Shown piece after piece: positions 22,701 to 53,073 of a stretch of 64,000 nucleotides of DNA (its first letter is position 1; every line of letters begins with the position of its first letter). Source of the DNA: Tetradesmus obliquus. Lineage: Eukaryota > Chlorophyta > Chlorophyceae > Sphaeropleales > Scenedesmaceae. A program made the position numbers and the translations under genes. The notes beneath the pieces are model-generated. The model searched no databases. It was not told the DNA's origin and was given only the letters and a program-made list of their open reading frames with translations. The stretch is from the NCBI GenBank assembly GCA_030272155.1, contig CP126193.1:4650001-4714000 (forward strand), in the 5' to 3' direction.

Positions 22701-24337
22701 GATGGCGGCGGTGTGTTTGTACAGCTTGGTTGATCTGCGGCTGCACCTGCGATGCTTTGGGAGCTGTGAACGCAGTGCATGTCCTCACTGTTTCATGGTG
22801 TCACCGCCAAGTGCTGTGTAACCCTCCCGCTGCCGCAGCACAAGTAATGTATCCGCTGTTTTGGAACTTCTCTGCATGTGGGTTGAACTCGCTCTCCAGC
22901 TTGCCGACAACTTGCTGTTCTTGTTTGTGTGTGTCCTCTGCAGGCGTCGCGTCTTCAGTGCAGATCCCGCGGCCCATCCCTGGCCTCATCTCGCAGCAGG
23001 TGCTGGTGGAGACGTATGAGCCAGGGCAGAGCGTGGCTCAATACATGAAGCGCCACACGCCCATCAATGCACACATTGTGGGCCTGGGCGTGGATGCCTT
23101 CCTCAAGATGCTGCTGGTAGACAACTTTGTGCACACAGACCTGCACCCAGGCAACATCCTGTTCCGCGCCGTGCCGCACAAGCATGCCGCGCAGCAGCAG
23201 CGCTGGGCGAGGCAGCAGCGGCAGCAGCAGCAGGATGCGGCGCAGGCGCAGCAGCAGGTGCAGCAGGGCGCTGGCCGCAGGCGGCGCTGGCAGTTCTGGC
23301 GCTCCCGCAGCAGCAGGGGTGCTGCAGCTGCTGATGGTGAGCAGGGCGCCGGCGCTGCTGCTGCTGCTGCTGCGCCAGAGCAGTGGGAGCTTGAGCTGCA
23401 GCAGATGATCGGGCAGCAGCAGCGCCGCTGGGCCAGCAAGCAGGCACAGCCTGGCGCAGATGGCAGCAGCGTCGCCAACGCACGCCTGGCAGCAGCAGCA
23501 GCGGCAGCAGCAGCCAACCCGGTTGTGGACGAGGCGGCGCAGCTGCTGGAGCAGCAGCTTGCCGGCGGCAGCAGCAGCAGCAGCAGCAATGGTCAGCCGG
23601 CGCTTGAGGCGCAGCTAGTGCTGCTGGACTTTGGCCTTGCGGAGCAGCTGACAGCTGAAGTGCGGCACCACTTCATAAGCTTCCTCAACGCCATTTCTGC
23701 TGGCGACGGCCTGTGTGCAGCGCGCCACCTGCTGCGCTGGTCACACACGCAAGCCTGCGAAGATCCGCGCGGCTTCACGTCCGATGTTATGGACCTGTTC
23801 TCAGATCGCTGCCGGATCGGCAGCGAGGCGGGCATCGATCTGGACGGCGTGATGAAGGCCGTGCTGGGGCTGGCGCGCAAGTGGGGCGTCAGCATTGACA
23901 GCTGCTACGCGAGCCTGGTGATCAGCGTGTGCGTGCTGGTGGGCTTTGCGCAGGCGCTGGACCCAGGGGTCAACATCATGGACGCGGTGAGTGCTGGAAC
24001 GGCGTCCAGGGTGCAGTGTGTTGTTGGTGTAGAGGTGTTGGTGTGGGCGCTTGCTGGATGCGGGTACGTACCTAGCTAGCTCAGGTGTGTGCATCTATGC
24101 TTGCATGGGTGATAATGCTGGCTCCTGTTGTGATGACTGTACAGGACAGATGTGTATTGTCCAGCACTTGGGCATTGGTGCAGCGACACTTCAGGTGCTT
24201 TGCATTCACTGCTTCAGCACCCAACACCAGCACTTATCTCACGCCGCCTGCTGGCGCTGCTGCTTCTGCTGCAGGCCACGCCTGCGCTGCTGGCATACAG
24301 CCTGACAGGCAAGGTGGTTGGGAGGCTGTACAGCTAG
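18986..24337 (+). CDS. ABC1/UbiB-family atypical kinase, ADCK2-like (about 1247 aa)
   Basis: Exons 18986-19217, 19423-19800, 20048-20200, 20461-21907, 22190-22617, 22944-23986 and 24275-24337 join in phase. Conserved kinase features, numbered from this start, are the KxGQ segment FIKWGQWSSARRDIFPEDFC (residues 709-728), LHDNAPVHSFRHTRRAVEAA, the ASGSIAQVH loop (about 771-779), a VVKV lysine (812), the catalytic HTDLHPGN (Asp945), and the metal-binding DFG (Asp1108). Family members act in mitochondria or plastids on quinone and lipid homeostasis. The roughly 700-residue N-terminal half is Ala/Gln/Ser-rich with hydrophobic helices, and about 150 low-complexity residues separate HTDLHPGN from DFG. 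Both are unusually long. The start is uncertain: a good acceptor at about 19054 suggests that upstream exons may exist. Resemblance is closest to ADCK2 because of the FIKWGQW and LHDNAPVHSF wording. Confidence 0.85.
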
Positions 24338-34415: not shown

Positions 34416-36830
34416 TCAGGCAGCATCCAGCAGCTCGCGGGCAAGGTACAACACAGGCAGCTTCAGCAGCATCAGCGCACAGTTCATGTTGCAGCCGCCA
34501 CCATGGCTGTTGATGTCTGATAGCACCTGCTGCATGCCGCCGGCTAGCATGCGCGCCCGCTGCAGCCCTCGCTGCAGCAAGCCCCGCTGTTGCTGCTGCT
34601 GCTGCTGCTGCTGTGGATGTGGTGCTGGCGCAGGAGCCTGCTGTTCGCCCAAGCTGCCGCCGCCGCTGCTGCCTAACGCCTGCTTGCTGGCACCTCCGCT
34701 GCTGCTGCCGTTGCTGTGGCTGCTGCCGGCCCGCGCTGCTGCACCTGCAGCGTCTGCTGCTGCGCTGCCTCCGTGGCTGCTGCCGCCTGCTGCCGAGAAG
34801 CTGCTGCTGCGGCTGCCCTGCTCCCTGCTGCTGTCCTGCACTTTCTTCACTGCTACCTCACAGCGCCCCACACCGCCAGGGCCAGTCATGACTACTTTGT
34901 CTTGCTGGCCTGCTTTTGAGCCCATCAGCGCATCCAGCAGCGTCCTGCTGCGTGCACTCGAGTCCATGAAATCCAGGATCTGAGCATACGACACGTACCC
35001 TGCAAACAGGGTACGCCGCTGTGTGCCAATCTGCCAGCCCAGCGGACTGCCTGCAGACGCACCTCCGCCAGAATTGTCTCTGCTGTTGGCTGCTGCTGCT
35101 GCTGCTGCGCCTTGGGGCCTGCCAGGTGACGCTGGCGCACCGCCTGCAGATGCCACAGCAGCAGCTGCAGCGGCTGCTGCAGAGTCTGCTGCGGCAGACG
35201 CTACCGCTGCCAGTGCTGCCGCATGGCCGCATGCAGCATTGTCCCGCTGGTGGTGTGGCTGCTGCAGCTGCTCACTGCTACCCGAGACGTCGATACTGCT
35301 GGCCTGCCTGCTGCTTGGTGCGTGTGCTGCTGATAGGTCTGGGTAGTGGTGGTCTGCTGCTTGCCCATAACTGTCCAGCACGGCATGCAGCACCACACAG
35401 TAGCACTTGTCCGCATCTTCCAGCACCTGTGCAGCATCGAATAATATGAGCTGGTGAGCAACAAACAATCACACTTGAGGGCCGCACATCTGCCAGAGCA
35501 CGGCGACAGAGCTAAGCATGCAGGATACACCACACACATAGGTTAGCAATTGCTGCTGTGGTCGCTTCAGCCCTTTTCTGAGCGCTGCCCCGGCTGCTGT
35601 CACCTTCCCACCCCTTCCCTGCCACTGTCATTCTGCTGCTGCTCAGCTGCAGCTGCCGCTGCTGTCCCCGCTCCTGCTGCTGGTGCTGCTCACCAGGTCT
35701 TGGAAGGCGTTGTCAAAGTTGTCGACTGCAAAGCATATGTCTGGGTAGCAGGGCTGCGGGTTGCTGGCCTCTGCCCTGCTGCTGTCCAGGTTGACTGCCG
35801 TAACAGTTGTTGACGCGTACACCGGCTTTGACACTGTGATCATGTTGGGGGACCAGGTGCGCCCCTCGGCAACAAAAGGCAGCGCTTCCCGCCTGCGCCA
35901 ATCCACGGATGGCATGTACAGGAGCAGCAAGTGAGTGCAGCAGCATCAGGGAAGGTTGAAGTGCAGTTGAAGGTTCATAACAGAACATGTGCAGCTGCCA
36001 TAGTTCATTTCATCATTGTGCAGCGTGCACTCAAGCCAAGCTAAGCTGGCAGTGGGCTACCCCTCAGTGAGCTTGCAGTTTCTGCCCAGGCAAACCCAGA
36101 GACATGCGACTCTCACAGCCTTGCCACCTTGCGGTGCACATCGTAGGCCCCAATCGTTAACGTTCACTGCGATTGCTAGCCTGATGAGCATCAGCGCCCT
36201 GTGCCTCACCCGCATGCCACCACTGTCAGCTGGTACTGGCTTTGCAGGACAATGTTGAGCAGCACTGTCTGCGCCCAGTCAACGTGGCCAAACTGGCTGC
36301 CGCTGAGCTGCAGCTCCTCTGGCAGCTGCTTTGCTTTGCGCCGCACAAAGAAGGGCGGGTTGTTGGCTGTAGGGTGACTGGGGGACTTGCTGAAGAATAA
36401 CAGGTCATCATGATGTGCGCTGTCTGGTGGTGGCAAATGGTTGATGAACTGTGATTGCAGGTACAAGATCAGCGCGAACGAGTCTGGCAGCATGACTGGT
36501 TTACGTGTGACGTAAATTGGTTTAACACGACTGCGGGTGTCAGCAGTCTGTGACTGCTGGATGCTTGGCACACAGCAGGCATACGTCCACAGCATAACTT
36601 GGACCTTCCAAGAAGCCAATTGCTGCAACCGGTGATGCTGTTGCTGCATGCAGCAGCATCTATAGACTGCATGGATGACACAGAGCACGCACCAGGAACT
36701 GAAAGCTCTCCCACCACTGCTGTGGCGTCCAAACTTGCAGGTAGGGTTGCTGTTGGGTATGGGTGCTGCTGTGCAGTAGCTTGGCCTGGTCCCTAATGGT
36801 GTGCAAGATGGATCGACGCGTGTCCGCCAT
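34416..36830 (-). CDS. KIAA0930 / DUF2045 homologue (4 exons, 528 aa)
   Basis: Minus-strand exons 36830-36693, 36448-36210, 35892-35694 and 35426-34416 join in phase. The product begins MADTRRSILHTIRDQAKLL. Conserved blocks in the order found in animal KIAA0930 are WWESFQFL, HHDDLLFF, PFFVRRK, VDWAQTVLLNIVLQSQYQL, CYPDICFAVDNFDNAFQDL, YVSYAQILDFMDS, MTGPGGVGRCEVAVKKVQ and a C-terminal ALMLLKLPVLYLARELL. The family is intracellular and its biochemical role is not established. Poly-Ala and Ser/Gly-rich inserts plus a nine-Gln run (from the plus-strand CTG run near 34590-34613) expand the second half. The start is the first ATG that connects to the conserved block. It is divergent from the SFI1-Kelch gene. 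Confidence 0.85.
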
Positions 36831-37343: not shown

Positions 37344-40300
37344 ATGGCAGGCCATGCACAGTGGGAGCTGGACAAGGATGCAGCCATCATAGCACTGGAG
37401 CGCAGGCTTGCGCTGGTGCAGATCCCAGAGCCCAGCGCAAGTCAAAACAATGTAGCAGTCAATGCACCTGTTGGGGCTGCACCAGAACGAAGCTTGTTGC
37501 TAAGCTTGCAGGCACCCACAAAGCTGTACCCTGCAGATGCTAGCTACAGCAATGCAGCCAGCAGGACTGGCACCTTCAGAGAAAGCAATGTACCAAGCAT
37601 TACAGCAAGCTTAAAGTGGTCTGCGACAATGTTTCATCAGCAGGCAGCAGGAACCAGTAGCAGCCACACCAGCAAGCGTACCAGCACTGGTGACATAGGC
37701 AGCAGCAAATCAGCGCCTGTGTCGCATGCAGACTTTAGTGCTCGACAGCTGCCACCACCACAGCAAGCAGCTGCAGTCGCCTCCTGGAATCCACCAGCCA
37801 GGGACACAGCAGCTGGCTTGGGGGCAAGCTACACACCAGCCTCAACCAGCACTGCTGGCAGCAGGTCTATCTGCAGCCAACACAGCAGGCCACTGCAGCT
37901 GCACAAGCAGCAGGAGCAGGACCATAACAAGGGTGTGCTGCTAATGGAGCGGCGTCTGGCACAGCTCAGCCAGGCACTCGAAGAGGCACAGGCCTTGCAG
38001 GAGCAGTACGCGCAGCAGCTGGCAGATGCAAATGCCGCAAACAAGCAGCGTGTTGGCAACATAGAGGTACGTGGTGGAGGCTGCTGCATCAGCAGACCGC
38101 ATGACGCACCACACAGCAACACTTTGAGTACTCCAATCCACAGCACGGCAATGAACAGGAAAAACAGGAGAAATAGCAATAACCAGGCTTTTGTTACTTC
38201 ACCCCTCACTTAGCTGTTGGCTGTGCTGCTTCTGCAGGCGGCTGGGCAGGCACGGCTGCAAGCGCTGCAGCTACGTATGACAGAGCACCTCGAGCAAAGA
38301 GGCCAGCGGCAGCTGCTGGCGCGCTGCATGGCTGCCTGGCGTGCACGTGTCTGTTTATGCCGCGCTGCACAGCACCTGCGGCAGCAGGCGCAGCAACGGC
38401 AGTTGCAGTCGTGCTGTGGAGCTTGGGTGTTGCTGACACAGCAAAGCAGGTGCGTCTGGGGTGAGGCGACAGGGTTTGTCACAAGCTTCAGGAACCATGG
38501 AAAAAATGTACACCCGATCACAAGCGCTGTTGGGTCCCCACAATATGTACAGCAGGGGGAGGTTCAACCCAAGTAATGCCATAGAGTTGCGCCGGGGAAG
38601 CTTTCACGCATGTTCAACACAGAGGTGTTGCCCTGGCAGTGCCACTGTGACAGTGTCACGCTCTGTGTATGTAACATTACAACGTAGCATACAGCTACAC
38701 TGCACCATGCGAGCCGACATGGCAGGTGGTGCCTGCAACTGTACATGCGCACCCAACGAGCAGCATGCTGCCGTGTTCCAGGCGGAAACTGAGCCTGCAG
38801 TCAGCGATGTATAAGTGGTGTATAATCATTGTAAAGCGATGTCTTGACATCCATTCCGCGACATTCGGCGGACATCCGGTGGACATCACGACATGTGATG
38901 TCCGATGTTTCTTGACTTGTATCCACTGACCGGGGACATGTGTCGATGTCCATGGTTGTCAAAAATTGATGTAAACATCGCACTAGGTTTTGGGGACGGT
39001 CCTGACAGCTCAACATGCGACCGCATGTGCAAGGGTACCCTGCCAGCTACCCAAGCACTGGCATGCAGTAGGTGCGGCGGTACATGTCAGCGGGCGCTGG
39101 CTCAGTCTGTGACAACCTGTTGCCTTGTGACAGCCCTACACCATGAGCACCATGTCGTGTGCTGCAGGGCGCAAGCGCATGAGCAGGGGGCTCTTTGCCA
39201 GGCAGCACTGCAGCAGCAGCGGCAGGTTGTAGCAGCTTGGCAGACCCAGGCAGTGCAGCAGGTGCAGTGGCGCGCACGGCAGCTGGGCCATGCAGTGCAC
39301 TGGCACGGCCGCATGGTGCAGCATGCTGCCTTCAGCAGCTGGCACTGCATGTGCGAGATCAGGAGGGACCAGGCGCAGAGAGCACATGCTTTACGGCACA
39401 GGCGTTTGCTCAGCAGAGCAGTTGAGGTAGGCAGAGTGCTTGTGATATTGTGATTCCAGGCATGTTTTGCAGGACACCCAGCTGCGGCCCACGTCTGTAG
39501 AGCAGCCGTGCCAACACCTGCAACCCCCAGCCAGATTACTCATGCTCAGCAGCGTGCACGTAGCCCAGAACTACTTGTTGCTGCCATATTTTTTCTGTCC
39601 GGCAGGCCTGGGTAGAAGCAAGAGCGTTACACAGTGAGGACAGCAGCTGTGAGGGTTCAGCAGCTCTGCAGCTGCAGCAGCAGGCTTTCCATGCGTGGCA
39701 TGGGTGGCTCTTCCTGCAAGGGCAGCAGCGGCAGTTGCAGCGCCTGCACAAGCAGCATGTGCTGCGCTCTGCATGGCAGCTCTGGGTGCAGCATGGGCCC
39801 AAGATGCCGGCGCAGCATGCAGCAGCCTCAGCAGCCTTCACAGCACTGGGCAGCAAACTGATTGAGCAGTGGGGCTTGCGGGCATTTGTTGAGCAGCTGC
39901 AAGAGCAGCAGGCGCGCCAGCACCTGCAGCAGCAGAAGCTGGCGCTGCTGCTGGGCAGTTGGAAGCAGCTGGCTGCAGCAGCAGCCAGGAAAGAGAGGCT
40001 GTTGACAGCGCGTCAAGTGGCAAGGCTGCAGCGACAGCTGCATCGCTGCTTCATGTGTTGGTGGCACCAAACAGCAGCTGCTGGGAGACATGCGGTTGGG
40101 AAGCACGCTGCTGCATTGCTGGTGAGTGGTTCAGACATCCCTGACATGTCAACAACAAATGGTGACCATGTCACTTTCACAAACTGCAGGCGCAAGCTGT
40201 AAGTAGCAATTCAAACAAAAGCATGCAGCTTATCCAATGCACTACTACAATCATGTGACAATGAACCGCAGGAGTCCCTCCATGTGCAGCAGACAGCTCT

Positions 40301-43300
40301 GGACTGTGCACAGGCCCAGCAGGCTGCTGCTGCCGAGCAGCTCAGGCTTACAGCCTTGCACAACCAGCAGCTGCAGCAGCAAGCTGTTGATGCCTGCTCG
40401 GGGGCGCTGGCAGGTGAGCTGTGGAATGTCCTGCTATAGATATGGTACAGGCAGCAGTGCTTCTGCAGTGTTTTTATGCAATGTGATCCTCCCGGAGGGC
40501 GAGGGCTTGACCAGCATGGTGCTTGCACAACCCCCGGCAACACAGTTCTTCTGGCCTGGCACCCTGCAGGTATGCAGTTCTCGCCTGCACTTGCCTGGAG
40601 GTCGCTGCCCTTCAACCCAGGGCAGGCAGGCCTGCAGCCCCGTGCTCGACATGCAGTGTTTAGGCTGGATGCACCGCAGCCACCCCAGCATGGCCTGCAG
40701 CAACCTGATACCAGCTCACATACAGCCAGCAGCATGGGCCAGTCATGCTGCTCAGGCACAGTTAGCTCTGGTTGTCTGCTGGTGTTTGGCGGTGTGCGTG
40801 GCGGCAGCTGGCTCAGTGACCTGACATTGTTGGTGCTCGAAGAAGAGGCAGCAGGAGACATGAAGACCAGCAGCATTGCAGTTCCAGTGCAGCAAACAGC
40901 TGCTGATGATGCCGACAGCATTTGTTCTGCTGGTGATGCAGCAAGCCAGGCAATGCTGCCAGTGCGCGACTTTGCAGCATGCGCCTGTGGCCAGAACCAG
41001 TTTGTAGTGTCAGGAGGGTTTGGGTCAGACCTCGGTGCTTTTCACCTTCAGCTGTTTGAGCTGCACCGTGACAAAGAAGCAGCGGCCGCCGCCGCCGCAG
41101 CAGCTCAAAGCAGTAGCGGCAGCAGCAGCGGCTGGTACAGTGGCTGGTCAGCCAGCTGTTCCGTGCTGCAATCTCGCAGCCAGGCGCCAGGGCCGCCAGG
41201 CCGCTGCCACCACAGCATCTGCTGCTATGCTGCTGGCGCCAGCCTGGTGGTGTTTGGCGGCTGGGCTGACAGGCGCGGCTGCCTGAATGACGTGTGGTTG
41301 TTTCACATGCAGCACATGGAGTGGTGGCAGCCGGAGCTGGCAGGTGACGCAGGCCGTGTCTAGTTGCAAGCACCTGAAGCATGTGCATGTGTACACATGT
41401 CCGTCTGCATTGCAATCCATGCGAATCAGCAGGCAGCTTGGCATGGCATGCACTGTCCGAGCATCAGCTCAACTCAGCATAGTGTGCAGTGAGCAGTCCA
41501 TTGGGCGCCAGCCGCAGGCAGCCTGCAGTCATGCATCTGTCTCCTCACACCAAGTTTGGCAGGTGCGACTCGCACTCGATAGGATTGTGTCACCGCATTG
41601 TGCTGCGCTGCGCTGCACTGGCCTGCAGGCACGTGGCCACCTCACCGCCGCAGCCATGCAGCAGCGCTGATAGGGCACCAGCTGTTCGTGCATGGTGGCC
41701 TCAATGCTGACGGCTCCCACCTGGCAGACATGTGGTGCCTGGACCTGCAGACCTGGCAGTGGAGGCAGTGCTGCGCAGCACAGGTAGGGAGGGTGCAGCC
41801 AGGCATAGCACAACACGCGCATACACCAGCCTGCAGTTGTACATGGGGTTGCAGGTGCTGCTGATGCAACAGGCTTCACGACACTACAGGATGCCGTAGT
41901 TGCACAGCATGAGAGTGCAAGGACATTATCTGCCGGCGCCTGCTGCTGCTTTGGTGGCTGTTGTTGGCTGCTCTTGCAGGGCTGTGAAGCTGTCGTTTGC
42001 CCCTCTGCACGCCGTGCGCATACGCTCGAAGTGGTGGGCAATCGTTACTTGCTGCTTCATGGCGGCTATGATGGCACCACCTTGCTGGGTGACACCTGGG
42101 TGTTTGACACGCGCAGCAGCACGTGGCTGGCTGTGGATGTGCAAGGTGGGCTGCTCGCGCATTGTTAAACTGAGCAGCGCATTGCTCAGCCCAAACCTCA
42201 ACCTCCAGTGGCTTTGCAAGGTGCAACATTTACGTCTGCATCTCTGTCAGCTGTTGCATTCTGTCCATTGCTGTGTTTGTATTGGATGTATTGGGTGCAG
42301 TTGTAGCAACCACAGGCCCCGTTACACTGAGATGCTTCCTCTGTGTCCTCATCTCGCTGCCTGCAGCACCTGCATCTGAGATGCCGGTGCCTCGTGCGCT
42401 GCACACCCTCACCGGCATTGGCGAGCGCTTCGTGCTGCTGGGGGGCAAGGGCCCCTTGGGGGAGCTGGGTGATGTGAGCCTGCTGGAGTGCCCTGCAGTG
42501 CAGCAGGGGCGGCGGCTGCAGCAGCAGCAGCAGGCCAGCCAGGCGCAGCTGCTGCGCTGCCAGCAGCGTAGTGCTCAGCTGGATGCTGACCTGGCATGCA
42601 GCAGGGCAGAGCTGCGGGAAGCCAAGCGGCAGTTGCAGGTGGGGTGTGCAGGCTGTTGCAGCTGCAGCAGCGCATCAGTTGCCGCTGCCGCAGCTATAAC
42701 TGCCGTGCCCACTGAAGCACTTTCTTAACGCATGGTCAACTTGCATGTTGAGCATGACAACAAGCACGTGTAGCCCGTTGGCTCAGGGCATCTGGTTGCT
42801 GTTGTGCGCACTGCAGGCATCCCTTCAGCAGAACAGCCAGCTGGCTGCTGAAGCCGCAGCTTCAAGCAAGGCCCGCACTGCTCTGGAAAGTCAGCTGCAG
42901 GAGGCCAGGGGAGCAGCAGCCACAGCCCAGCAGGCATCGCAGCAGGCAGCAGCACAGGTGGAGGCATTGGAGCGGCGGCTGGTGCGTGCCAGGCAGGGCG
43001 GCAACAAGGCGGTGCAGGCAGCAGCTGACCTGACACAGCAGCTGCAGGCTGCAGGTAAGAATGGAGTGGTGCCAGTACCTTAAAGTATGGCCTGTGCAGT
43101 CACTGGCAAATAGTGCATCCTTGCTGCAACGTTGATGTTGCTCACAGTGGACAGCGTGACCTCACATGATGAAGCTTGCCCAGACTGCGGTGGTCGCAAT
43201 GCTCAAGAGCATCACTGCCTCTGCCGTCTGACGCCACTGAGTCAGTGATGCCGGCGACCACAGCCTGTTCTTTGCTGTTGTGTTTGACCACAGCCTGTAC

Positions 43301-45083
43301 TTTGCTGTTGTGTTTGTGCAGATGCCAAGGGCGACGGTCTCCGCCAGCAGCTGCAGCAAGCCCAGCAGCAGCTGCAGCAGCAGCATCTGCTGCTCTGTGA
43401 GCGTGCTGCTGAGCTGGCTGTGGTGCGCAGCGAGCTTGCGGAATGCCGGGCGCGTGCCAACACCGCAGCTGCTGCCAGCAGCAGTGCGCAGTCTGACTTC
43501 AGGGTGGCGCTGGCCAGGAGCAACAAGCTGTACAGCCAGGAGCTGCGCCACGTGCAGGGGCTGCTGCAGGTGGGGAATGTGGAGGCATGCAGCACAGACA
43601 GCAAGTTGGACACGTGGCACACATGCAAAGCAGGCAGTTGTAATGGCAACAGCTTATGCAGTTTGCAGATTACATATATAGTTTAAGCAGCAGAGCTGCG
43701 CAGGCTGCAACTTTGTAGTTGCCAGTGAGTGTCAATGTGAATCTGAAACAGAAAATGCGGTGTGTTACACTGCTGCCATGCTTCCGCCAGGCTGCCCGGA
43801 AGTCCCAGAAGCAACTGGCGCAGCAGGTGGCGCAGCTGCAGGCACAGCCGTCCCAGGCACCACACGTACAGCAGCCACCAGCACCAGCAGAGGCAACTGC
43901 TGCTGCTGCAGCAGCAGAAAACAGCCTACCAGCCCAGCAGCAGCAGCAGATGCAGCAGCAGCAGCAGACGCATAGTTCAGATGTGCTGCAAGGCATGCCT
44001 GTTGAGCATGCTGCTGCGCCAGAGGCAGTGCTGGCCAGCAGGCGCTGCCAGCTGCTGAGCAACTGCAGAAGTGCCAAGCGCAGTAGCAGCTCTGATGATG
44101 GCGGAAGTGGAATAGACGATGCATGGCAAGCTGACCCCTCACTTGCCGACTTGGGCAGCAGTGCTGGATGCCAGGTGCCTGGGCAGCTGCTGTGTGTGTC
44201 TGCTGAGCAGCTGGCCCTCATGTCAAGCAGGCAGGGCAGGGCACAGGCGCAGCTGGAGCTACTGCAGCAGCAGCTGCAGAAGCAGCAGGTGAGCCGCGCA
44301 GTGGTTGCTGCCAGCTGCGATGCAGTTGGTGCAAGTCAGGCACGTTGTGCACACTAGTATTGTGCACGTTACGCGCAGGCGGCCTGCAGTATCAACACTT
44401 TGCGCAGCCAAGGTTGGTACGCAAGCAGCTGCCGGCAGCATGATTTGACCAGCTGCTCTTCAGCACAAGCGGCAGGGACGCTACTGTCCAATTACGTACT
44501 TCAAAATTGTCCTCACAAGACATAGTGCTCACACATTGCCGCACGCATGCCGCAGGATGAGATTGTGGCGTTGAAGCAGCAGCTCAACACGGAGCGCCAG
44601 GCTGCAGCAGCTGCGCAGGAGTTACGTGCTGCTGCTGTGGAGCAGCTGCACCTGGCTGAGCAGCAGCACCAGCAGCAGCTGCTGCAGCTGGAGGAAAGCA
44701 TAAAAGGCTCCAAGTGGAAGCTGTGGGAGTTGGAGGCAGATGCTGCCAGGCGGTCAAACACAGGGATCAATGCGCAGCATCAACCACAGCAGCAGCAGTG
44801 CAAGGATGCGTGGAAGTTGGAGGCAGTATGGCCAAGCGACACGGAGCCGGATGTGATGGCTTCCATGGAAGATGATACCACAGGTGTTAAACCAGCTGCT
44901 GGTGTCACACCAAAAGCTGCTAGCACTGGCGAGACAGCGAGTGCTGGCTGGGCAGGCAGTGCTGGGTGTTTCTCTGTTGAGCTGGTGGCTCAACCAGGCC
45001 CTGCCGACCAGCTTGAGATGCTGCCAGAAGTTGTGAGGCTGTTTGAGTTGCACCGCAGCACGATGAGCAGGACGATACTGTGA
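37344..45083 (+). CDS. SFI1-like repeat / Kelch / coiled-coil protein (13 exons, 1576 aa)
   Basis: Exons 37344-38066, 38238-38449, 39168-39426, 39606-40121, 40272-40413, 40570-41343, 41629-41783, 41980-42145, 42367-42638, 42817-43054, 43322-43569, 43791-44288 and 44556-45083 join in phase. Residues 1-241 are Ser/Ala-rich with a short coiled coil. Residues 242-570 carry about ten helical repeats spaced roughly 30 residues with a conserved Trp (MAAW, CGAW, VAAW, FSSW, VEAW, FHAWHGW, SAWQLW, IEQWGLRAF, LGSWKQL, FMCWW), as in centrin-binding SFI1. Residues 618-1040 hold Kelch blades (LLVFGGVRGGSWLSDL, LVVFGGWADRRGCLNDVW, LFVHGGLNADGSHLADMW, LLLHGGYDGTTLLGDTWVF, FVLLGGKGPLGELGDV). Residues 1040-1460 are a Gln/Ala-rich coiled coil. 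A basal-body or centrosomal scaffold is my inference. I know no named protein with this order. Confidence 0.85.
38841..38958. repeat. GACAT/ATGTC-rich palindromic cluster
   Basis: In intron 2 of the SFI1-Kelch gene at least six GACAT and four ATGTC words fall within about 120 bases, several in opposite orientation, for example 'gacatcacgacatgtgatgtc'-like dyads. It resembles the GGACAT-rich patch at 1791-1905. Confidence 0.6.
43256..43315 (+). repeat. 30-bp tandem duplication at an intron end
   Basis: 'gaccacagcctgttctttgc' plus ten bases occurs at 43256-43285 and again at 43286-43315 with one mismatch, directly before the GTGCAG acceptor of exon 11 of the SFI1-Kelch gene. Confidence 0.85.
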
Positions 45084-45445: not shown

Positions 45446-47959
45446 ATGCTCAGCAGCAGCAGCACTCGTGTGCTAAGGCCACCAGCAACATGCCCGCATA
45501 ACTTGCTACCGGCCACATGCAAGCTGCCTCTTCGAAGGTTGCAGCCGCCAGCTGCAGTTGGCTTCTCCAGCAAGGCAGCTGCACAGAAACGCAAACGACA
45601 GCAGCAGCGGCAGCGCAAGCGGCAAGGTGAGCATGCCACATGCATGCTACAGCCTCCTCATACCAGGCAGCACCTAGCGTGGATCTCATCTGTATTGCAC
45701 TTGCAATGCTTCCAGCAGTATAGGAGACTACGGGCTGGTCTCTAACAGAGCTGCTGAGGTGCCCTATTCTTCTTACACCTATGTGTGCATGTGCTTGCAG
45801 GAAAAGCTGATGATGATGAAGATGATGCGGAGCTCACGGAGCTCAGCAAGGCTCAGCACGTCAGTGAGTGCCGCATCTGTGATGGTCACAACTGCGCCAT
45901 CGCCCATCCATCAACCCAGCAACACAGCGCAGATGCTGCCACACGCCGTGTGCTTCTAAACTTCCACAGCAGCTTGCAGTGTGTCAGTCAAATTGCAGCC
46001 GAGTAAGCTGACGCACAACCTGCCAGTGGAGTAATACATTAACAAGACTAACTGCACTGCTGCATTGTTGTGTGTGCAGTCACTGTGCCCGACTTCTCCC
46101 CTGTGAGCCAGCAGCTGCGCGATGTATTTGATGAGCGCTTTCAGGATCCCCGCCACACCACACAGGAGCGGTTCATGTGGGACTACTGGTAAGCTGCGGC
46201 TGGCCGCGTAGGCATCTCCTCCTGATTGACGGTAATGTTAGTAACAGCGCAGTGACAAGGCCTCCGCGTATGGTGACAGGATGCATGCATGTCTGCGTAC
46301 CATGGTGCGTGCTTGGGAGCATTGCGGCTGCGTCGTTTGATGCCTGCAGCTGCTGACAAAGATGTCACTGCTGCTGCTGCTGCTGCTGGTGCTGCTGCTG
46401 CTGCGCTCCAGGTATGTCAAGGACCAATACACGCTGCATCGCACGCAGGTAAGCGCCACCTGCTGCACCCTTCCTGAAATGCCCGTTGCTCACCTGTCTG
46501 TTAAGCGTGCTACGTGTTGACCTGCTGCAGTGCCAGCAATCATGGTCAAGTCTACCTGCACCACCCTGAATCTGCTGGGTGGCTGATGCTGCTATTGCTG
46601 CTGTCACAGGCGTCTGCGTACTTCCCGGAGCAGCTGCATACGCAGCTGGTGGATGCGCTGCTGGAGTATGGCGAGAAGCAGCTGGTGCGTTTCAACACAG
46701 CCGCAGCAGCAACAGCAGCAGCACCGGCTGCTGGGCAGCAGCAGCAGCACCATCACCACCACCAGCAGCAGCAGCGGGGGCAGTTCTGCAATCAGATGAG
46801 CAGGCAAAGTGCTTTGCAAAGGCTGCCTGTTGCGCCACATGTACTATACTCCATCCTTGCGTGCTGCAGGCGCAGCCAACGTGAAGCAAAGGCTAGAGGT
46901 TGACCCTGCTGGCACATGCACAGATTGGCAGGGGCATGCCAGCCCTTGGCGGCTAAAGCCCTCACCGCCTGTTGTCTTGAGCAACACGCGACTGGGTGCA
47001 TGTGGGTGCATGTGCATGTGCATGTGTGTGCCTGCAGGGCTGCCGCGCCATCAGCCCTGTGTGGATGAGCTACTACGTTGACGGCTGCGGCCAGGACCTG
47101 CACTGCGACAGCTTCCACGGGCCATTTGCCTACGTGCTGTCACTCACGCCATGGGAGGGCCGCGTTTTCACAGGTGCGGTGTAGCCAGAAGTGACATATT
47201 CAAGATGTCTGTGCGAGTTGTGAGCTGCTGTTTGGGTTGCACAATGCAGCATTGATAGCCTATATGCCCAAAACGGCTTGAAGCATGCATGTGCCTGCTC
47301 CTTCCCCAGTGCGGCGCAAGCGCCGTGCAGCTGCCGCTGTCTTCTGGGCAACCCGTAAGCAGGCACAGCCTTGCTGCTAATGACGCCACCTTATGTCGCC
47401 TGCTGCTGCTGCTGCTGCTGGCCACTGCAGGTGGTGAGACGCAGATCCTGCAGCCTCAACTGCTGGGCAGCTTCTGGCAGTCCTTCAGCCCCGGCAAGGG
47501 CCTGGAGCTGACTGATCTGGTCACACTGGTGGAGCCGCGCTTCAACCAGCTCACAGGTGCGGGCTGTTTGTATGTGAAGGCTGCTCTGCAGCGCATTCCG
47601 GCGCCCCTGCACCCCTGCAGAGCCGCTGCATGTGTAGAGAAGTATTTTGTTTCAGCCCGGCAGCGATGCCCTGCGGCGCAGCTGCGCGCAGTCAGCCTTT
47701 GACGGCAGCTGACCGCTGCTTATAAAATTAGCGCATGATGGGCCTGGCAAGCTTTCGTATGAGGTTGTCGCAGCATCATCCCATACACTCCAAAATGCAT
47801 TCTGCTGGCGGTTGCTTGCAGTTCACGTACGGTTAATGTCTCCATCCTGCTGTGCAGTATTTGACCCGCGCTTCCCTCACGGCGTGAGGCCTGTGGCAGG
47901 CACGCGCGACCCACAAAAGGGGCGCCTGGTGCTGCATGGTGAGTGCTGGTGGCACAGCA

Positions 47960-48002
<43 letters not shown>

Positions 48003-48603
48003 AATGCCCCTGTAGCAGCTGCTCCGCGTGCCAGATGCAAACTTTTGGTTAATCCTTGCCCAGCTGCAGCATCCTGCGCAGTCAAGCTGCTCGTTGTCTG
48101 ACTTATTGGCAGCTGGGTGCTTGCCCAACAGATGAAGATGTAGAGAGCGCCACACGTTGCAATGTGTTGACAGAGAGACGACACTGTCGAAGCAAAATAA
48201 CAAAATAACAACGAATGCACCTCAACCTGCAGGCTGGTTCACTGAGCCATCGCCCTTCTTTGACGGCCCCTTGCCGGAGGAGGAAGCGCTGCAGCACCTC
48301 AACGCAGCGCTGTTTCCGATGTTTGATCAGCTGCAGGCGCTGCCGCAGGTGACAGGCACCATCAGCATGCAGCTGCGCGTGTCTGGCGAGACTGGGGCAG
48401 TTACAGATGTGAAATTCCTTGCAGACACATTGGTGGCGCTGCCTGCTGCTGCTGCGGACTTGGGTCTTGGCAGTGGGCTGTTAGACAGCGGGACCATCAG
48501 GGGAGCTGTGCAGCATGTCATTCGCGACAGCTTAATGGCAGCAGAGTTCCCTGAGAGCGAAGAGGGAGACACGGTGATCACCCTGCCGCTGGTGTTTGAG
48601 TGA
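45446..48603 (+). CDS. 2-oxoglutarate/Fe(II)-dependent oxygenase, organelle-targeted? (9 exons, 392 aa)
   Basis: Exons 45446-45626, 45801-45863, 46080-46188, 46412-46448, 46610-46684, 47038-47173, 47431-47556, 47858-47938 and 48233-48603 join in phase. The first 60 residues are rich in Ser, Arg and Ala with no acidic residue, which fits a plastid or mitochondrial transit peptide. The oxygenase core has the proximal iron ligands His177 and Asp179 (DLHCDSFHGPF), the SLTPWEGRVFTGGET strand, the distal His250 (FDPRFPHGVRPV) and Arg259 to bind 2-oxoglutarate. The family hydroxylates an unknown substrate. The wording closely follows an uncharacterised plant and algal group as I recall it. About 120 C-terminal residues form an additional domain with GTISMQLRVSGETGAV. 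Substrate unknown. Confidence 0.9.
47961..47998 (+). repeat. (AGC)n microsatellite in an intron
   Basis: About 12 AGC units lie just after the donor at 47939 of the oxygenase gene, so the sense strand here is CAG rather than CTG. Confidence 0.9.
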
Positions 48604-48909
48604 TGGGTGGCTCAAGCCCAGGTGCAACTTGCATTGAATGCAGCGCAGGTGCGCTGCAGCCTGCCACAACTGGCAGTGCTGTGTGATGGTATGTTGTGCC
48701 ATTCGCTGCTTGTGTGAGGCAACTTATGATTTGAATCTCCACGTTGTAACTAATTGTAAGTGGAATTCTGAAGGCTGCAGAGGCTCAGGAAGGACAAGGG
48801 AAGCATGCAGGTAATTCAAGTGACGGGACCACAATCCCTGTCGTACCAGCTACTGCCAGAATGTGCACATTTAGGGGCCCAAGCTTGCGTTCTCACCGAA
48901 CTCGATACG
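48604..48909. other. Intergenic region
   Basis: 306 bases between the oxygenase stop and the chosen peptidase start. They include two poly(A) signal candidates and an alternative in-frame ATG at 48805. Confidence 0.5.
48745..48759 (+). terminator. Two TGTAA poly(A) signals
   Basis: TGTAA occurs at 48745-48749 and 48755-48759, about 145 bases after the oxygenase stop codon. This is the typical green-algal polyadenylation word and distance. Confidence 0.65.
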
Positions 48910-50182
48910 ATGATCAGAAAGATGCTGGTTGCAATCGCTGGCGCTCTCGCCACACCGCTCAAGCTTCGACGAAAGCAGAAGCACCGTCATCAGAAGTCTA
49001 CTTGGAACGATAAACGTAGCAAGCCAGCTAAGCTGCGCGTACACAACGACTGCAACTTCCAGATCAGTGTGTACTGGTCAGTGACGACAGCCACGTTTGA
49101 ACACGCAGCAGCAGCAGCTGCTGCAGCAGTAGCAGCAGCAACTGCTGCAGAGGTACCCCGGCGAGCACAGTAACTTACGCAGCTGCCGCAATGCAGGGTC
49201 AACTATGAAGGGACGCTGCAGCAGTTTGGCACTGTTAGGCCCGGAAGAGTGCACGTGCTCAGTGAGTGAGGTCACACAGCAACAGTATTCGGCTTGCAGC
49301 TGAGCCCGCTGCTCTCCTAGCTTGCTCGGCTCTTCCAAGAGATTCATCCTTCTAATAGTGTTTGGTGTTGACGTCTGCAGGCACCTTCAGCACGCATCCA
49401 TGGCAGTTCAAGCCCTCTGATGGCTCAGCTAAGCCGGTGTGGAGCTACATGGGTGAGCAGCATCAGCCGCAGCAGCATCACCCCAGTGTTGATCCAGACA
49501 CAGAAGCCACGCATCAACCTGCTGCAGTTGTCTTTGGAACGCCCGCTGAAGCTGAAGCTGGGGCATGCTGGCCCAGTTGCTGTCCTTGCCTTGGGCATGT
49601 GATGATAAGCATGCAAGATGCAGTGCACTCATGCGCAGCTGTGATCGCTGCTGCTGCTGCTGCTGCTGCCTGCAGGGCCCTCTGCAGTGCTTTGGCTGCA
49701 GCCAGGCGGCAAGCTGCAGGTCAAGCGGCTGGCAGCAGCAGCAGAGCATCAGCAGCAGGCGGAGGAAGATGATAGCAGCTGGGCGAAGCCGGAGTGGGGC
49801 CAGTACAGGCAGCGTGGAAGTGTGGCTGGCATGCCAATCATGGTAGGCCACCTGCTCCGACAGTTGTTCGTTTCAAACCAATCAGCCGCTGGCACCTAAC
49901 GGGCTGTGTCAGGCATGCGGCAATGGTGCTGGTGGTGGTACAGCATGTGTGCATGTGCAGCCCTCTTTAGCTGTGCTCAGGCAGCAATGCGCTGCAGGGG
50001 CGCGGCACGCCTTGCACTGCCACACCTTACAGCTGGTCAGCCTCTCCTTGTGTAGAGAAGTTGTAGCAAAGTGGCCTGACACGAAGTGAAGCCCACTACC
50101 TGCCCGCCTGCTCGCCTGCCTGCCTGCCTGGCTGCCTGCCTGGCTGCCTGGCTGCCTGCCTGCCTGCCCGCCTGCTTGCCCA

Positions 50183-50214
<32 letters not shown>

Positions 50215-50401
50215 GCCGCCTGGCCGCCTGCCTGCCGTCCTGCCTGCCAGGCGTACGACTGCGTGTGTGATGAGGCTGTGTCAGCGCTGGCCTGCGGCAT
50301 CACCCACATGACAGCCTGCACCCGTCCCGACATCATGCAGCGCCTCGTGGCAGCAGGCTGCAGGCTGGCCATCATCGGCAAGTGCCAGGTGGGGCAGGCA
50401 A

Positions 50402-50449
<48 letters not shown>

Positions 50450-53073
50450 GACGCTTCTTGCCTCGATAATGCAGTTTGTGGTGACAGCCGGCTGCATGTT
50501 GCATGTGCATGCTTGGCTGCAGTTGGTGGCAGCGGGTTAGTTTAGGCTCGTCATTCGGCAGCCGCCAGGTCATGGAGCTGTGCTCCTGCTGCTGCTGCTG
50601 CTGTTCCTGCTGCCATCTTACGAGGTGAGCCACATGCCTCCTGCCTTTTCTTGTTACTGGCAGCAGTGCTCATTGCTCACAGCACTCACAACAAACAACC
50701 TAATCCACTGCTGCTGCTGCTTGCTGCTTGCTGCTGCCAGGTGACCAGTGACATCCCATGCCACCGCTTCTTGCGCTTCCAGGCAGAGGAGGGCGGCAGG
50801 GACATTGATGCCACCACGCGCGGGATGGGCGCCACGTGTGCAGTGCCCACGGCATCATGCGGGGAGGAGAACCTTACCATGACGGGCGACAAGTGAGCTG
50901 CTGCCTCGATTGGTTGCATACCGTTTTGGTGCATCTGGCGTGCTGCAGTTGCTAGCCGTGTGCCACATGTTGAATGTGTGGAAGGTGCACTATGGTACGT
51001 TGATGCTGCTGCCTATTGAAAAGCAATGCATTGCAAAGCAGTGCACGCACTGCATGCTTGGTGCGTTGCTGAACACCTGCTGGGCAACACCTTGGTGGTC
51101 TGATGGTGTCGCCATGCTGCCTCGACCTTGTTGCTGTCTTCCTTGCAGCCGCTACGCTGGCGAGAGCATCCTGGTGCATGAGTTTGCGCACTGGTGAGGT
51201 CCTGAGGGTGGCAGGAGCAATGAAGCTAGCACAGTCTGGGTCAATTGCTGCACAGTGCTCGCGTGCCTGCTGCAATGTTAAATCGCTTTGTTTGCCGCCA
51301 AACTTGTCAGATGCGACCTGCGTTTGCTGGTGGAGCCACCCGGGTCCTTGCAGGGCCTGAACAGCCGGCATGCGCAAATGCGGTGCAAGGAGCTGCAGAC
51401 ATGAGAGCACTCGGGCGTGGGGCATCATCCTTGGCACTGCATGCAGCACCCAGCACTGCCCAAAGCATCCGTCACTACAGTGGCAGCTCCACATGCTGCC
51501 GCATCCCAGTGCTGTTTGCTACAAAACGCAGCACTTGCTGTGGCTCAGACTCAATACTTGCTGCCATGGTGGTGCTGTGCAGTGTGATGAACCTGGGCTT
51601 CTCTGCAGAAGACACGGCTGCAGTGCACAGCCTGTTCGAGCAGGCGCAGCACCAGAAGCTGTACGACTCAGGTACGGACCACTGCTGCCGCCGCTGCTGC
51701 TGCTGCTGCTGCCGTGTTTTCAGCTGCCTATGCCTTGCTATTGTAGAATCACTGCATGCATGCTGTGGTGCAGTGGAGTGCTGCTGCCTGCATACCCTCC
51801 TCTCTTTGTGAGCATGTGTCAATGGTGCTGTACCTGCGCACGGTGATTCCAGTTGTTGCTGAAGTCACTTGTGCTGTGTACAATGCTGCTACTGCTGCTG
51901 CTGCTGCTGCTGCTGTGCATGCAGAATGCTACATGATGGACAACGCTGACGAGTACTTTGCTGAGGCCAGCCAAGCCTGGTTTGGCGCTACTGTGCGGTG
52001 AGGCTGCCGCACACTGCATAGATCTTTTTACGCCCACTTCGTCCGACTACTTTCATCTGCTTCACATGCTAAAAACTCTGCAAAATCGATGTTAACTGCA
52101 TGGCAGGTGACTGCAGAGGCGCCAGCTGTGATGTCACCGTGACAGCAGTGATTGCTGAGGATGCATACAGTCTTTGGTGCTCAGGGCTGTTAGCCTCTCT
52201 GACAGCATCCACACCATACAACACACAGCATACTCATGTCAGCAGCGCCCCATGGATTGGAATAGCCTAGGCCTGCACACATTTTCAGGCCCTTGTTTCA
52301 TTTGATACATTGGCAGGCAAAGGGTTAAGGCCCCAAGAAATGGGTTATTCCTGCAGCAAAAACAGGCTTCAGCTAAAACTTCAGGCACACCATGCTGACA
52401 CTCCCTGTGCCCGTGTTTGGTGTGGCGTGGTGTGACAACAGGTGTGACGTCAACAGCGGCATCAACACGCGGCAGAAGCTGCAGCAGCACGACCCAGGGC
52501 TGGCCGAGCTGCTACTCAAGGTGGGGTGCACGGTTTGTTTGTGTAAGCCACAATGGCACCACAATTCAGGCCACAAGGCCAACTGAGGCAAATTGTTTCA
52601 ATATAGGCGACAATTGCACCACATGCATCTTTATTGCGCCTGGCATTGGTGTAGACTGGGCGCTTACGGACAAATTGAAGATAGTAAGGCCAAATCAAGT
52701 TGGATTCGGGTTGCATAGTCATCAAGCACTACGGCAGAGGTTTCCTGCTGCTTGTGGAAGAGCTTGTACTCGTGTCTGCTGAACAAATGTATACATGTGA
52801 ACCTGTCCCCAGAACTGCCGCCTGTGCATTGCTTGAGCCGTACCTTGTGTGCACATGCAGGTGTATGGCGACAACTGTTGGTGCTACACAGACACTAGCC
52901 CAGGAGTCTTCACAGGCCAGCCGCCACGCGCTGCTGCTGCTAGCAGTGACAGCAGCAGCACGCCGCAACAGCAGCTGGAGGGCTCTGCTGCTGCTGCGCT
53001 TCAGCCTGCGGCTGGTGGCGCGCTGCCACGTGCCATGTTGGGCCACGGCAGCCGTCACGCTGTTCTCAACTAG
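48910..53073 (+). CDS. VHL-beta-like domain fused to an HEFAH zinc metallopeptidase (11 exons, 419 aa)
   Basis: Exons 48910-49076, 49197-49261, 49381-49452, 49676-49842, 50251-50388, 50741-50892, 51149-51193, 51583-51671, 51925-51997, 52442-52520 and 52861-53073 join in phase. Residues 38-100 match the VHL beta domain: RVHNDCNFQISVYWVNYEG, a PG turn, then FSTHPWQFK. Residues 158-349 resemble fungal and bacterial peptidases of the anthrax lethal factor-like type: RPDIMQRLVAAGCRLAIIG, TSDIPCHRF, YAGESILVHEFAHCVMNLGF with HEFAH at 264-268 as zinc site, and MMDNADEYFAEASQAWFG (Glu308 a likely third ligand). NSGINTR and VYGD follow. The protein ends in a Ser/Ala-rich tail. Whether it is secreted is unclear. 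ATG codons at 48805, 48910 and 48922 are in frame; 48910 was chosen because 48805 is only about 45 bases past the upstream poly(A) words. Confidence 0.85.
50098..50250 (+). repeat. CCTG-type tetranucleotide tract forming an intron end
   Basis: About 150 bases of CCTG/CTGC units with scattered substitutions (ggctg, cccg, ccgt) run up to the TGCCAG acceptor at 50250 of the metallopeptidase gene. It gives matching poly-cysteine/leucine/proline frames on one strand and poly-glycine/arginine/glutamine frames on the other, which are not genes. Confidence 0.9.
50404..50448 (+). repeat. (CTG)n microsatellite
   Basis: A run of about 15 CTG units lies 15 bases after the donor at 50389 of the metallopeptidase gene. 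Confidence 0.9.

Follow-up and report, generated by a model that had tools for sequence, protein, structure and literature searches.

The gene at positions 37344-45083 on the forward strand of a 64,000-nucleotide stretch of the Tetradesmus obliquus genome (assembly GCA_030272155.1, contig CP126193.1, positions 4,650,001 to 4,714,000; hereafter the window) encodes a predicted protein in which Trp repeats of the Sfi1 type are followed by a Kelch propeller and a coiled coil. Proteins with repeats and Kelch blades were also found in other chlorophytes. We favor, with a probability of roughly 0.55, the reading that this is a green-algal Sfi1-repeat protein acting as a centrin-binding scaffold for a centrin fiber, likely at the basal-body/centriole region.

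Repeats, Kelch blades and coiled coil of the predicted protein

Residues 242-570 contain 15 Trp, ten of which (275, 304, 336, 370, 400, 429, 458, 487, 517 and 550) form a comb with spacings of 29-34 residues. When the longest Trp chain at a spacing of 28-35 was compared with random placement of 15 Trp in 20,000 trials, the mean chain was 2.8 and a chain of 10 was reached in 0/20,000. The Pfam Sfi1 profile (PF08457), run on the isolated residues 242-570 as the first-pass annotation of the window had suggested, gave 27.5 bits (gathering score 22, E 1.6e-6), while none of six controls (four shuffles and the reversal of 242-570, and one shuffled stretch from Chloropicon primus) matched at E<=10. 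In the parts of PMC9406199, PMC5112337 and PMC8622359 available to us, the centrin-binding repeat is given as Ax7LLx3F/Lx2WK/R with a 33-residue periodicity, and positions 1, 4 and 8 of its hydrophobic triad correspond to Trp, Trp-3 and Trp-7. Counting F, L, W, V, I and M at these positions against 5000 permutations, we found a hydrophobic residue at Trp-3 for 11 of the 15 Trp (4.9 expected; 0/5000 permutations) and at both positions for five (1.1 expected, p 0.0024). Heptad periodicity, tested per 84-residue block with 400 shuffles each (p uncorrected), was not detected in the repeat region (p >= 0.08 per block), which also has few Pro; the lack of a heptad signal is expected for an Sfi1-type rod. 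By profile, motif and period, residues 242-570 are Sfi1-type repeats. The comb length agrees with the roughly ten SFI1-like repeats described in a first-pass annotation of the window, although the profile match appears only when this region is scanned alone.

The Kelch assignment comes from the whole-protein Pfam scan, in which PF24681 scored 161.7 bits (cut-off 50, E 2.1e-47) and only Kelch-type domains were found at E<=1. Six Gly-Gly blade pairs (691, 766, 847, 898, 955 and 1008) are invariant in a six-protein alignment, A1. Because all six are invariant, we take the predicted propeller, residues ~622-1026, to be six-bladed, one blade more than the "at least five" of the first-pass annotation.

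Beyond the propeller, the six 84-residue blocks jointly covering residues 1009-1302 gave heptad signals with p 0.000-0.018, and block 1387-1470 gave p 0.028; blocks between 1261 and 1428 were without a signal (p 0.25-0.94). Heptad segments are thus present as first described, but the predicted coiled coil consists of two segments of about 220 and 85 residues, split by a low-complexity linker, and not of one segment exceeding 400 residues.

The exon/intron structure was rebuilt from the raw sequence by placing splice sites and translating the spliced frame. The resulting model has 13 exons and 12 introns, 12/12 of them GT-AG, and its frame of 1576 codons plus stop begins exactly at 37344 and finishes at 45083, which bears out the coordinates and the 13 in-phase exons originally proposed. 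Ala (270 of 1576 residues) and Gln (213) are abundant in the sequence, and composition controls were therefore needed.

Relatives with the same layout and their ancestry

Relatives were sought in three protein searches, in each of which ~8,000 candidates were scored within limits set by shared words, length and candidate number. The first, with window-protein residues 242-1030 as query, returned five proteins: the relatives P0001, P0002 and P0004 and the other Kelch proteins P0003 and P0005. The second, with residues 100-860 of P0004, returned 13, namely P0004 itself, P0006, P0007, P0008 and nine other Kelch proteins. The third, with alignment A2 as query at E<=1e-10 and words possibly drawn mainly from the Ala-rich first row of that alignment, returned P0002, P0018 and the other Kelch proteins P0019 and P0020. 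As family members we rejected P0003, P0005, P0009-P0017, P0019 and P0020, in which Kelch-profile stretches are only partial, from position 105 on, and the repeats are not matched significantly; the Micractinium match, P0003, is a different Kelch protein. These limited searches returned no Mamiellophyceae, land-plant, Ostreococcus- or Chlorella-type relative, and because of their limits the missing lineages are no evidence of absence. A scan of viral contigs with alignment A3 gave 58 pattern matches, 0 of them confirmed.

P0001 is 40% identical to the window protein over residues 137-1152, that is, across the repeats, the Kelch region and the first coiled coil. We take it to be transcript-derived from the transcript-assembly style of its EukProt name, "GHRR01016635.1.p1 ORF type:complete". 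Around exon junctions 4/5 to 8/9, the window protein and P0001 align with few gaps or none, and the segment ~195-240, at the end of exon 1 and ahead of the repeats, aligns with P0001 as well. The open reading frame (ORF) of P0001 stops (from residue 1109) at the position of the window exon 10/11 junction, which suggests either that an intron has been retained or that this is a short isoform lacking the later coiled coil. P0002, from Scenedesmus sp. PABB004 (Sphaeropleales), is the same protein joined in its record to the next gene, and matches residues 1540-1569, at the end of the C-terminal tail, with 57% identity. Its public label, "GPA3", is without Pfam support, with Kelch and 2OG-oxygenase above the cut-off and VHL below.

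P0006, from C. primus, carries repeats and Kelch and is 53% identical to P0004. P0004, P0007 and P0008 likewise carry both, P0008 being truncated within Kelch, and are termed Chloropicon-type by similarity alone. P0018 has Trp repeats and first blades collinear with positions 4-212 of the family Kelch profile and was retained as a member; it is a truncated prediction (ENA contig <= ~5 kb) that fails the comb and two-position triad tests on its own. The first-pass annotation had proposed looking for orthologs in other chlorophytes, and repeats plus Kelch indeed occur in both Scenedesmus sp. PABB004 and C. primus. P0006 is publicly labeled "RING finger protein", a name without Pfam support, as its precomputed list holds Kelch-type families only.

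These relatives bear on the gene model. That two adjacent genes were merged by a wrong splice model is very improbable: P0002 shows that merging occurs in such annotations, but P0001 spans from ahead of the repeats into the coiled coil, and P0004, P0006, P0007 and P0008 carry repeats and Kelch together. On the P0001 alignment through the repeats, Kelch and the coiled-coil start, we ruled out a merged-gene artifact. Judged from these alignments, the three parts belong to a single gene and the fusion is no artifact, as the first-pass annotation had held.

The repeat signature extends to several of the relatives. PF08457 passes its cut-off in P0004 (25.4 bits) and in C. primus P0006 (26.1 bits). 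Among 116 Trp pooled from the eight proteins, a hydrophobic residue stands at -3 in 75%, at -7 in 41% and at -8 in 40%, and joint occupancy of -3 and -7 is enriched (p<0.05) in 7/8 proteins, the exception being P0018 (p 0.31). Trp combs have ten members in P0001 and eight each in P0004, P0006, P0007 and P0008 (p<=0.0006), the latter four sharing eleven invariant repeat Trp spaced 33, 26, 37, 33, 30, 33, 33, 33, 29 and 33 residues apart. Over the repeats, the structural model of P0001 has long helices at 126-348 and 356-553, but with a mean predicted local distance difference test (pLDDT) score of only 55, thus at low confidence; the segment matching ~195-240 of the window protein is helical in this model at similarly low confidence, and the P0008 model is helical across the repeats at a mean pLDDT of 48. 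The mean of 55 is that of the whole P0001 model, in which Kelch blocks reach 88. When this model was compared with the PDB by Foldseek, 120 matches had E<=0.001, the best at 2.7e-18, and the Kelch domains of KLHDC2 and LZTR1 were among those retrieved.

Common descent of the Scenedesmus-type proteins (window protein, P0001 and P0002) and the Chloropicon-type proteins is probable. All six rows of alignment A1 share eight repeat Trp as well as linker Trp 627. A Kelch profile of the Scenedesmus-type proteins was scored on the Chloropicon-type proteins and 13 generic Kelch proteins. Its best in-register stretch reached 84.8-88.7 bits in the three full-length Chloropicon-type proteins and 41.9 in the truncated P0008, against a generic maximum of 73.7 (n=13). 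The reverse profile, with the window protein left out of the targets, gave 73.6 for P0001 against a generic maximum of 56.5, with P0002 at 51.5 and the truncated P0018 at 14.2. Between the groups, Kelch thus matches in register, and the repeats agree only as a motif. The two groups would instead be independent fusions of an Sfi1 rod with Kelch in an alternative that we consider rather unlikely. The identical order of parts, the single in-register Kelch stretch that is best in the full-length Chloropicon-type proteins and, reversed, in P0001, and the alignment of eight repeat Trp in all six A1 proteins argue against it, whereas the repeat profiles, which do not cross between the groups, speak in its favor. 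Specifically, the Scenedesmus-type repeat profile found P0007 as its best Chloropicon-type match at E 0.14, behind the generic P0020 at 0.095 and with P0018 unlisted, and the reverse profile listed zero family members. Total between-group Kelch scores, which fail to separate relatives from generic proteins (P0006 103 bits vs. generic P0003 104 bits), are likewise in line with independent fusions.

Gene features and neighborhood

The feature coordinates are collected below.

Table 1. Features of the Sfi1-Kelch gene and its surroundings, in window positions
Feature	Positions	Strand	Content	Basis
Exon 1	37344-38066	+	residues 1-241, N-terminus mostly low-complexity	splice model
Exons 2-4	38238-38449, 39168-39426, 39606-40121	+	residues 242-570, ten Sfi1-like Trp repeats (predicted)	PF08457, Trp comb, hydrophobic triad
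Exon 5	40272-40413	+	residues 571-617, repeat-to-Kelch linker	splice model; contiguous in P0001
Exons 6-8, with the beginning of exon 9	40570-41343, 41629-41783, 41980-42145, 42367-~42500	+	predicted six-bladed Kelch, ~622-1026	PF24681, Gly-Gly pairs, Foldseek of P0001 model
Rest of exon 9 to start of exon 12	42500-43820	+	predicted first coiled-coil segment, ~1027-1245	heptad periodicity
Part of exon 12	43820-44244	+	Gln/Ala/Pro low-complexity linker, ~1246-1386	no heptad signal over most; tandem repeat 43872-43968
Exon 12 (3' end) with exon 13	44244-45083	+	predicted short second coiled coil, ~1387-1470, and C-terminal tail	heptad periodicity, alignment
Exons 9-13, full bounds	42367-42638, 42817-43054, 43322-43569, 43791-44288, 44556-45083	+		
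Intron 10, directly ahead of exon 11	43256-43316		30-base unit twice, copies 96% alike	
Downstream neighbor gene	~45446-52000	+		start ~45446 by eye
ORF	22703-24076	+	ABC1 atypical-kinase match	PF03109, 60.3 bits
ORF	34419-35468	-	DUF2045 match	PF09741, 39.2 bits

Downstream of the gene, pieces at 46082-51998 (+) match residues 1302-1901 of the Scenedesmus protein P0002, and the 2OG-Fe(II) oxygenase domain of P0002 (1391-1499) lies within the part matching this neighbor. The P0002 record therefore appears to merge two neighbors, in a gene order common to Scenedesmus and the window. An Rfam scan of the 64-kb window gave 0 matches.

Favored function and alternatives

We infer centrin binding, location and a role in a fiber. 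The ten Trp repeats would form a long helix in which each repeat holds one centrin or related EF-hand protein, gripped via the hydrophobic triad (L/V-x3-hydrophobic-x2-W) in the manner of Sfi1 from yeast and humans. The Kelch propeller would dock this centrin rod onto a partner protein, the C-terminal coiled coil would make the protein a dimer or oligomer, and the assembly would build or anchor a centrin fiber, either a connecting fiber or a rhizoplast-like link between nucleus and basal body. According to the accessible portion of PMC6070942, the rhizoplasts of green algae were the first source of isolated centrin, and Sfi1p is often involved in the assembly of centrin fibers.

Yeast and human Sfi1, Tetrahymena Sfr1-13, the Paramecium infraciliary-lattice protein and Toxoplasma TgSFI1 likewise have Trp repeats with L-x3-hydrophobic-x2-W at ~30-33 residues and PF08457; long helices are predicted for them and, at low confidence, in the P0001 model. 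The protein described here differs from them in its Kelch propeller, which goes unmentioned in the passages on these proteins that we saw, and in having ten repeats where yeast Sfi1 has 21, by the excerpt of PMC5112337. Propellers of the KLHDC2/KLHDC3/LZTR1 type have the Kelch fold in common with it (PF24681; Foldseek 8ebn, 6do5 and 9mf0), but their titles point to ubiquitin-ligase or RAS-binding functions, whereas in the algal protein a Trp-repeat rod precedes the propeller and a coiled coil follows it. A flagellar Kelch domain alike by sequence and fold occurs in axonemal proteins of Chlamydomonas (8glv, dynein heavy chains), with the best stretch limited to the Kelch blades. Among the titles and abstract openings listed on joining Sfi1 or centrin with Kelch, in one case 10 of 36 papers, there was no published Sfi1-Kelch protein; the first-pass statement that no named protein has this order of parts stands for that literature, although the layout is not unique to this genome.

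Several results weigh against the favored reading. No Sfi1 match at E<=1 emerged from the whole-protein Pfam scan. In the relatives, PF08457 stayed below its cut-off of 22 in P0007 (19.8 bits), P0008 (11.4) and P0001 (6.0) and was not listed for P0002 or for P0018, which was scanned whole, so that 3/8 members, including the window protein, reach the cut-off. At Trp-7 alone the enrichment is nonsignificant in the window protein (6 vs. 3.4 expected, p 0.10), and p falls below 0.05 in only 3/8 proteins. The Trp comb is nonsignificant in P0002 (four members, p 0.16) and P0018 (three, p 0.28). A PDB sequence search with the repeats of the window protein and of C. primus matched no chain, Sfi1 included, at E<=10, and we therefore place the protein as an Sfi1-repeat protein and not as Sfi1 itself. 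Finally, neither Chlamydomonas nor Volvox yielded a relative in the three limited protein searches, which sits poorly with a general component of basal bodies.

The modest Sfi1 scores, with the cut-off met in three of the eight members, would also suit an alternative that we consider quite unlikely, in which centrin is not a ligand of the helical Trp-repeat rod and the protein, like those of the fungal Tea1 type, serves as a scaffold for the cytoskeleton or for polarity, mainly through its Kelch propeller and coiled coil. Fungal Tea1/Kel-type proteins consist of Kelch followed by a coiled coil. Kelch within a long coiled-coil protein is thus a shared trait, and the matches include fungal Kelch proteins of comparable length, one of which, P0014, bears the UniRef label "Tip elongation aberrant protein". 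They differ, however, in the absence of a significant Trp-repeat match (best P0013, E 0.72 and 1.7 in two profiles), and their Kelch stretches begin at family-profile position >=105, mostly after 160, where P0018 aligns from position 4. The triad and comb of the algal protein, well over their permutation controls, also argue against this alternative.

An Sfi1-type scaffold could instead bind centrin at sites other than flagella (spindle pole, nuclear envelope or division apparatus), as yeast Sfi1 acts at the spindle pole body (portions of PMC5112337 and PMC9406199). The vegetative cells of Chloropicon, in which the gene is kept, are without flagella, which would be in keeping with such a role; yet, in the sections of PMC6731263 and PMC12301720 available to us, Chloropicon retains a near-complete set of flagellar genes, so that the distribution does not favor a nonciliary role. 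Together with the lack of an Ostreococcus- or Chlorella-type relative in the limited searches, this makes a nonflagellar scaffold unlikely. The retained flagellar genes of Chloropicon fit a scaffold at the basal body without proving it.

As its layout recurs in relatives from other green algae, the T. obliquus protein may be an undescribed green-algal centrin-fiber scaffold. Tentatively, and with less confidence than we give to common descent, the proteins might represent an ancient chlorophyte family predating the split between Chloropicophyceae and core chlorophytes, in which a one-chain module of Sfi1 rod, Kelch propeller and oligomerizing coiled coil would fix a contractile centrin fiber to a specific partner, for example as the scaffold of a rhizoplast or of a basal-body connecting fiber. 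In the literature that we looked at, we came across no Sfi1-type scaffold named from green algae, and a conserved protein joining Sfi1 repeats, Kelch and coiled coil is a concrete candidate for one. Its presence in Chloropicon could supply a marker for the unseen flagellate stage suspected there, according to the part of PMC12301720 that we consulted.

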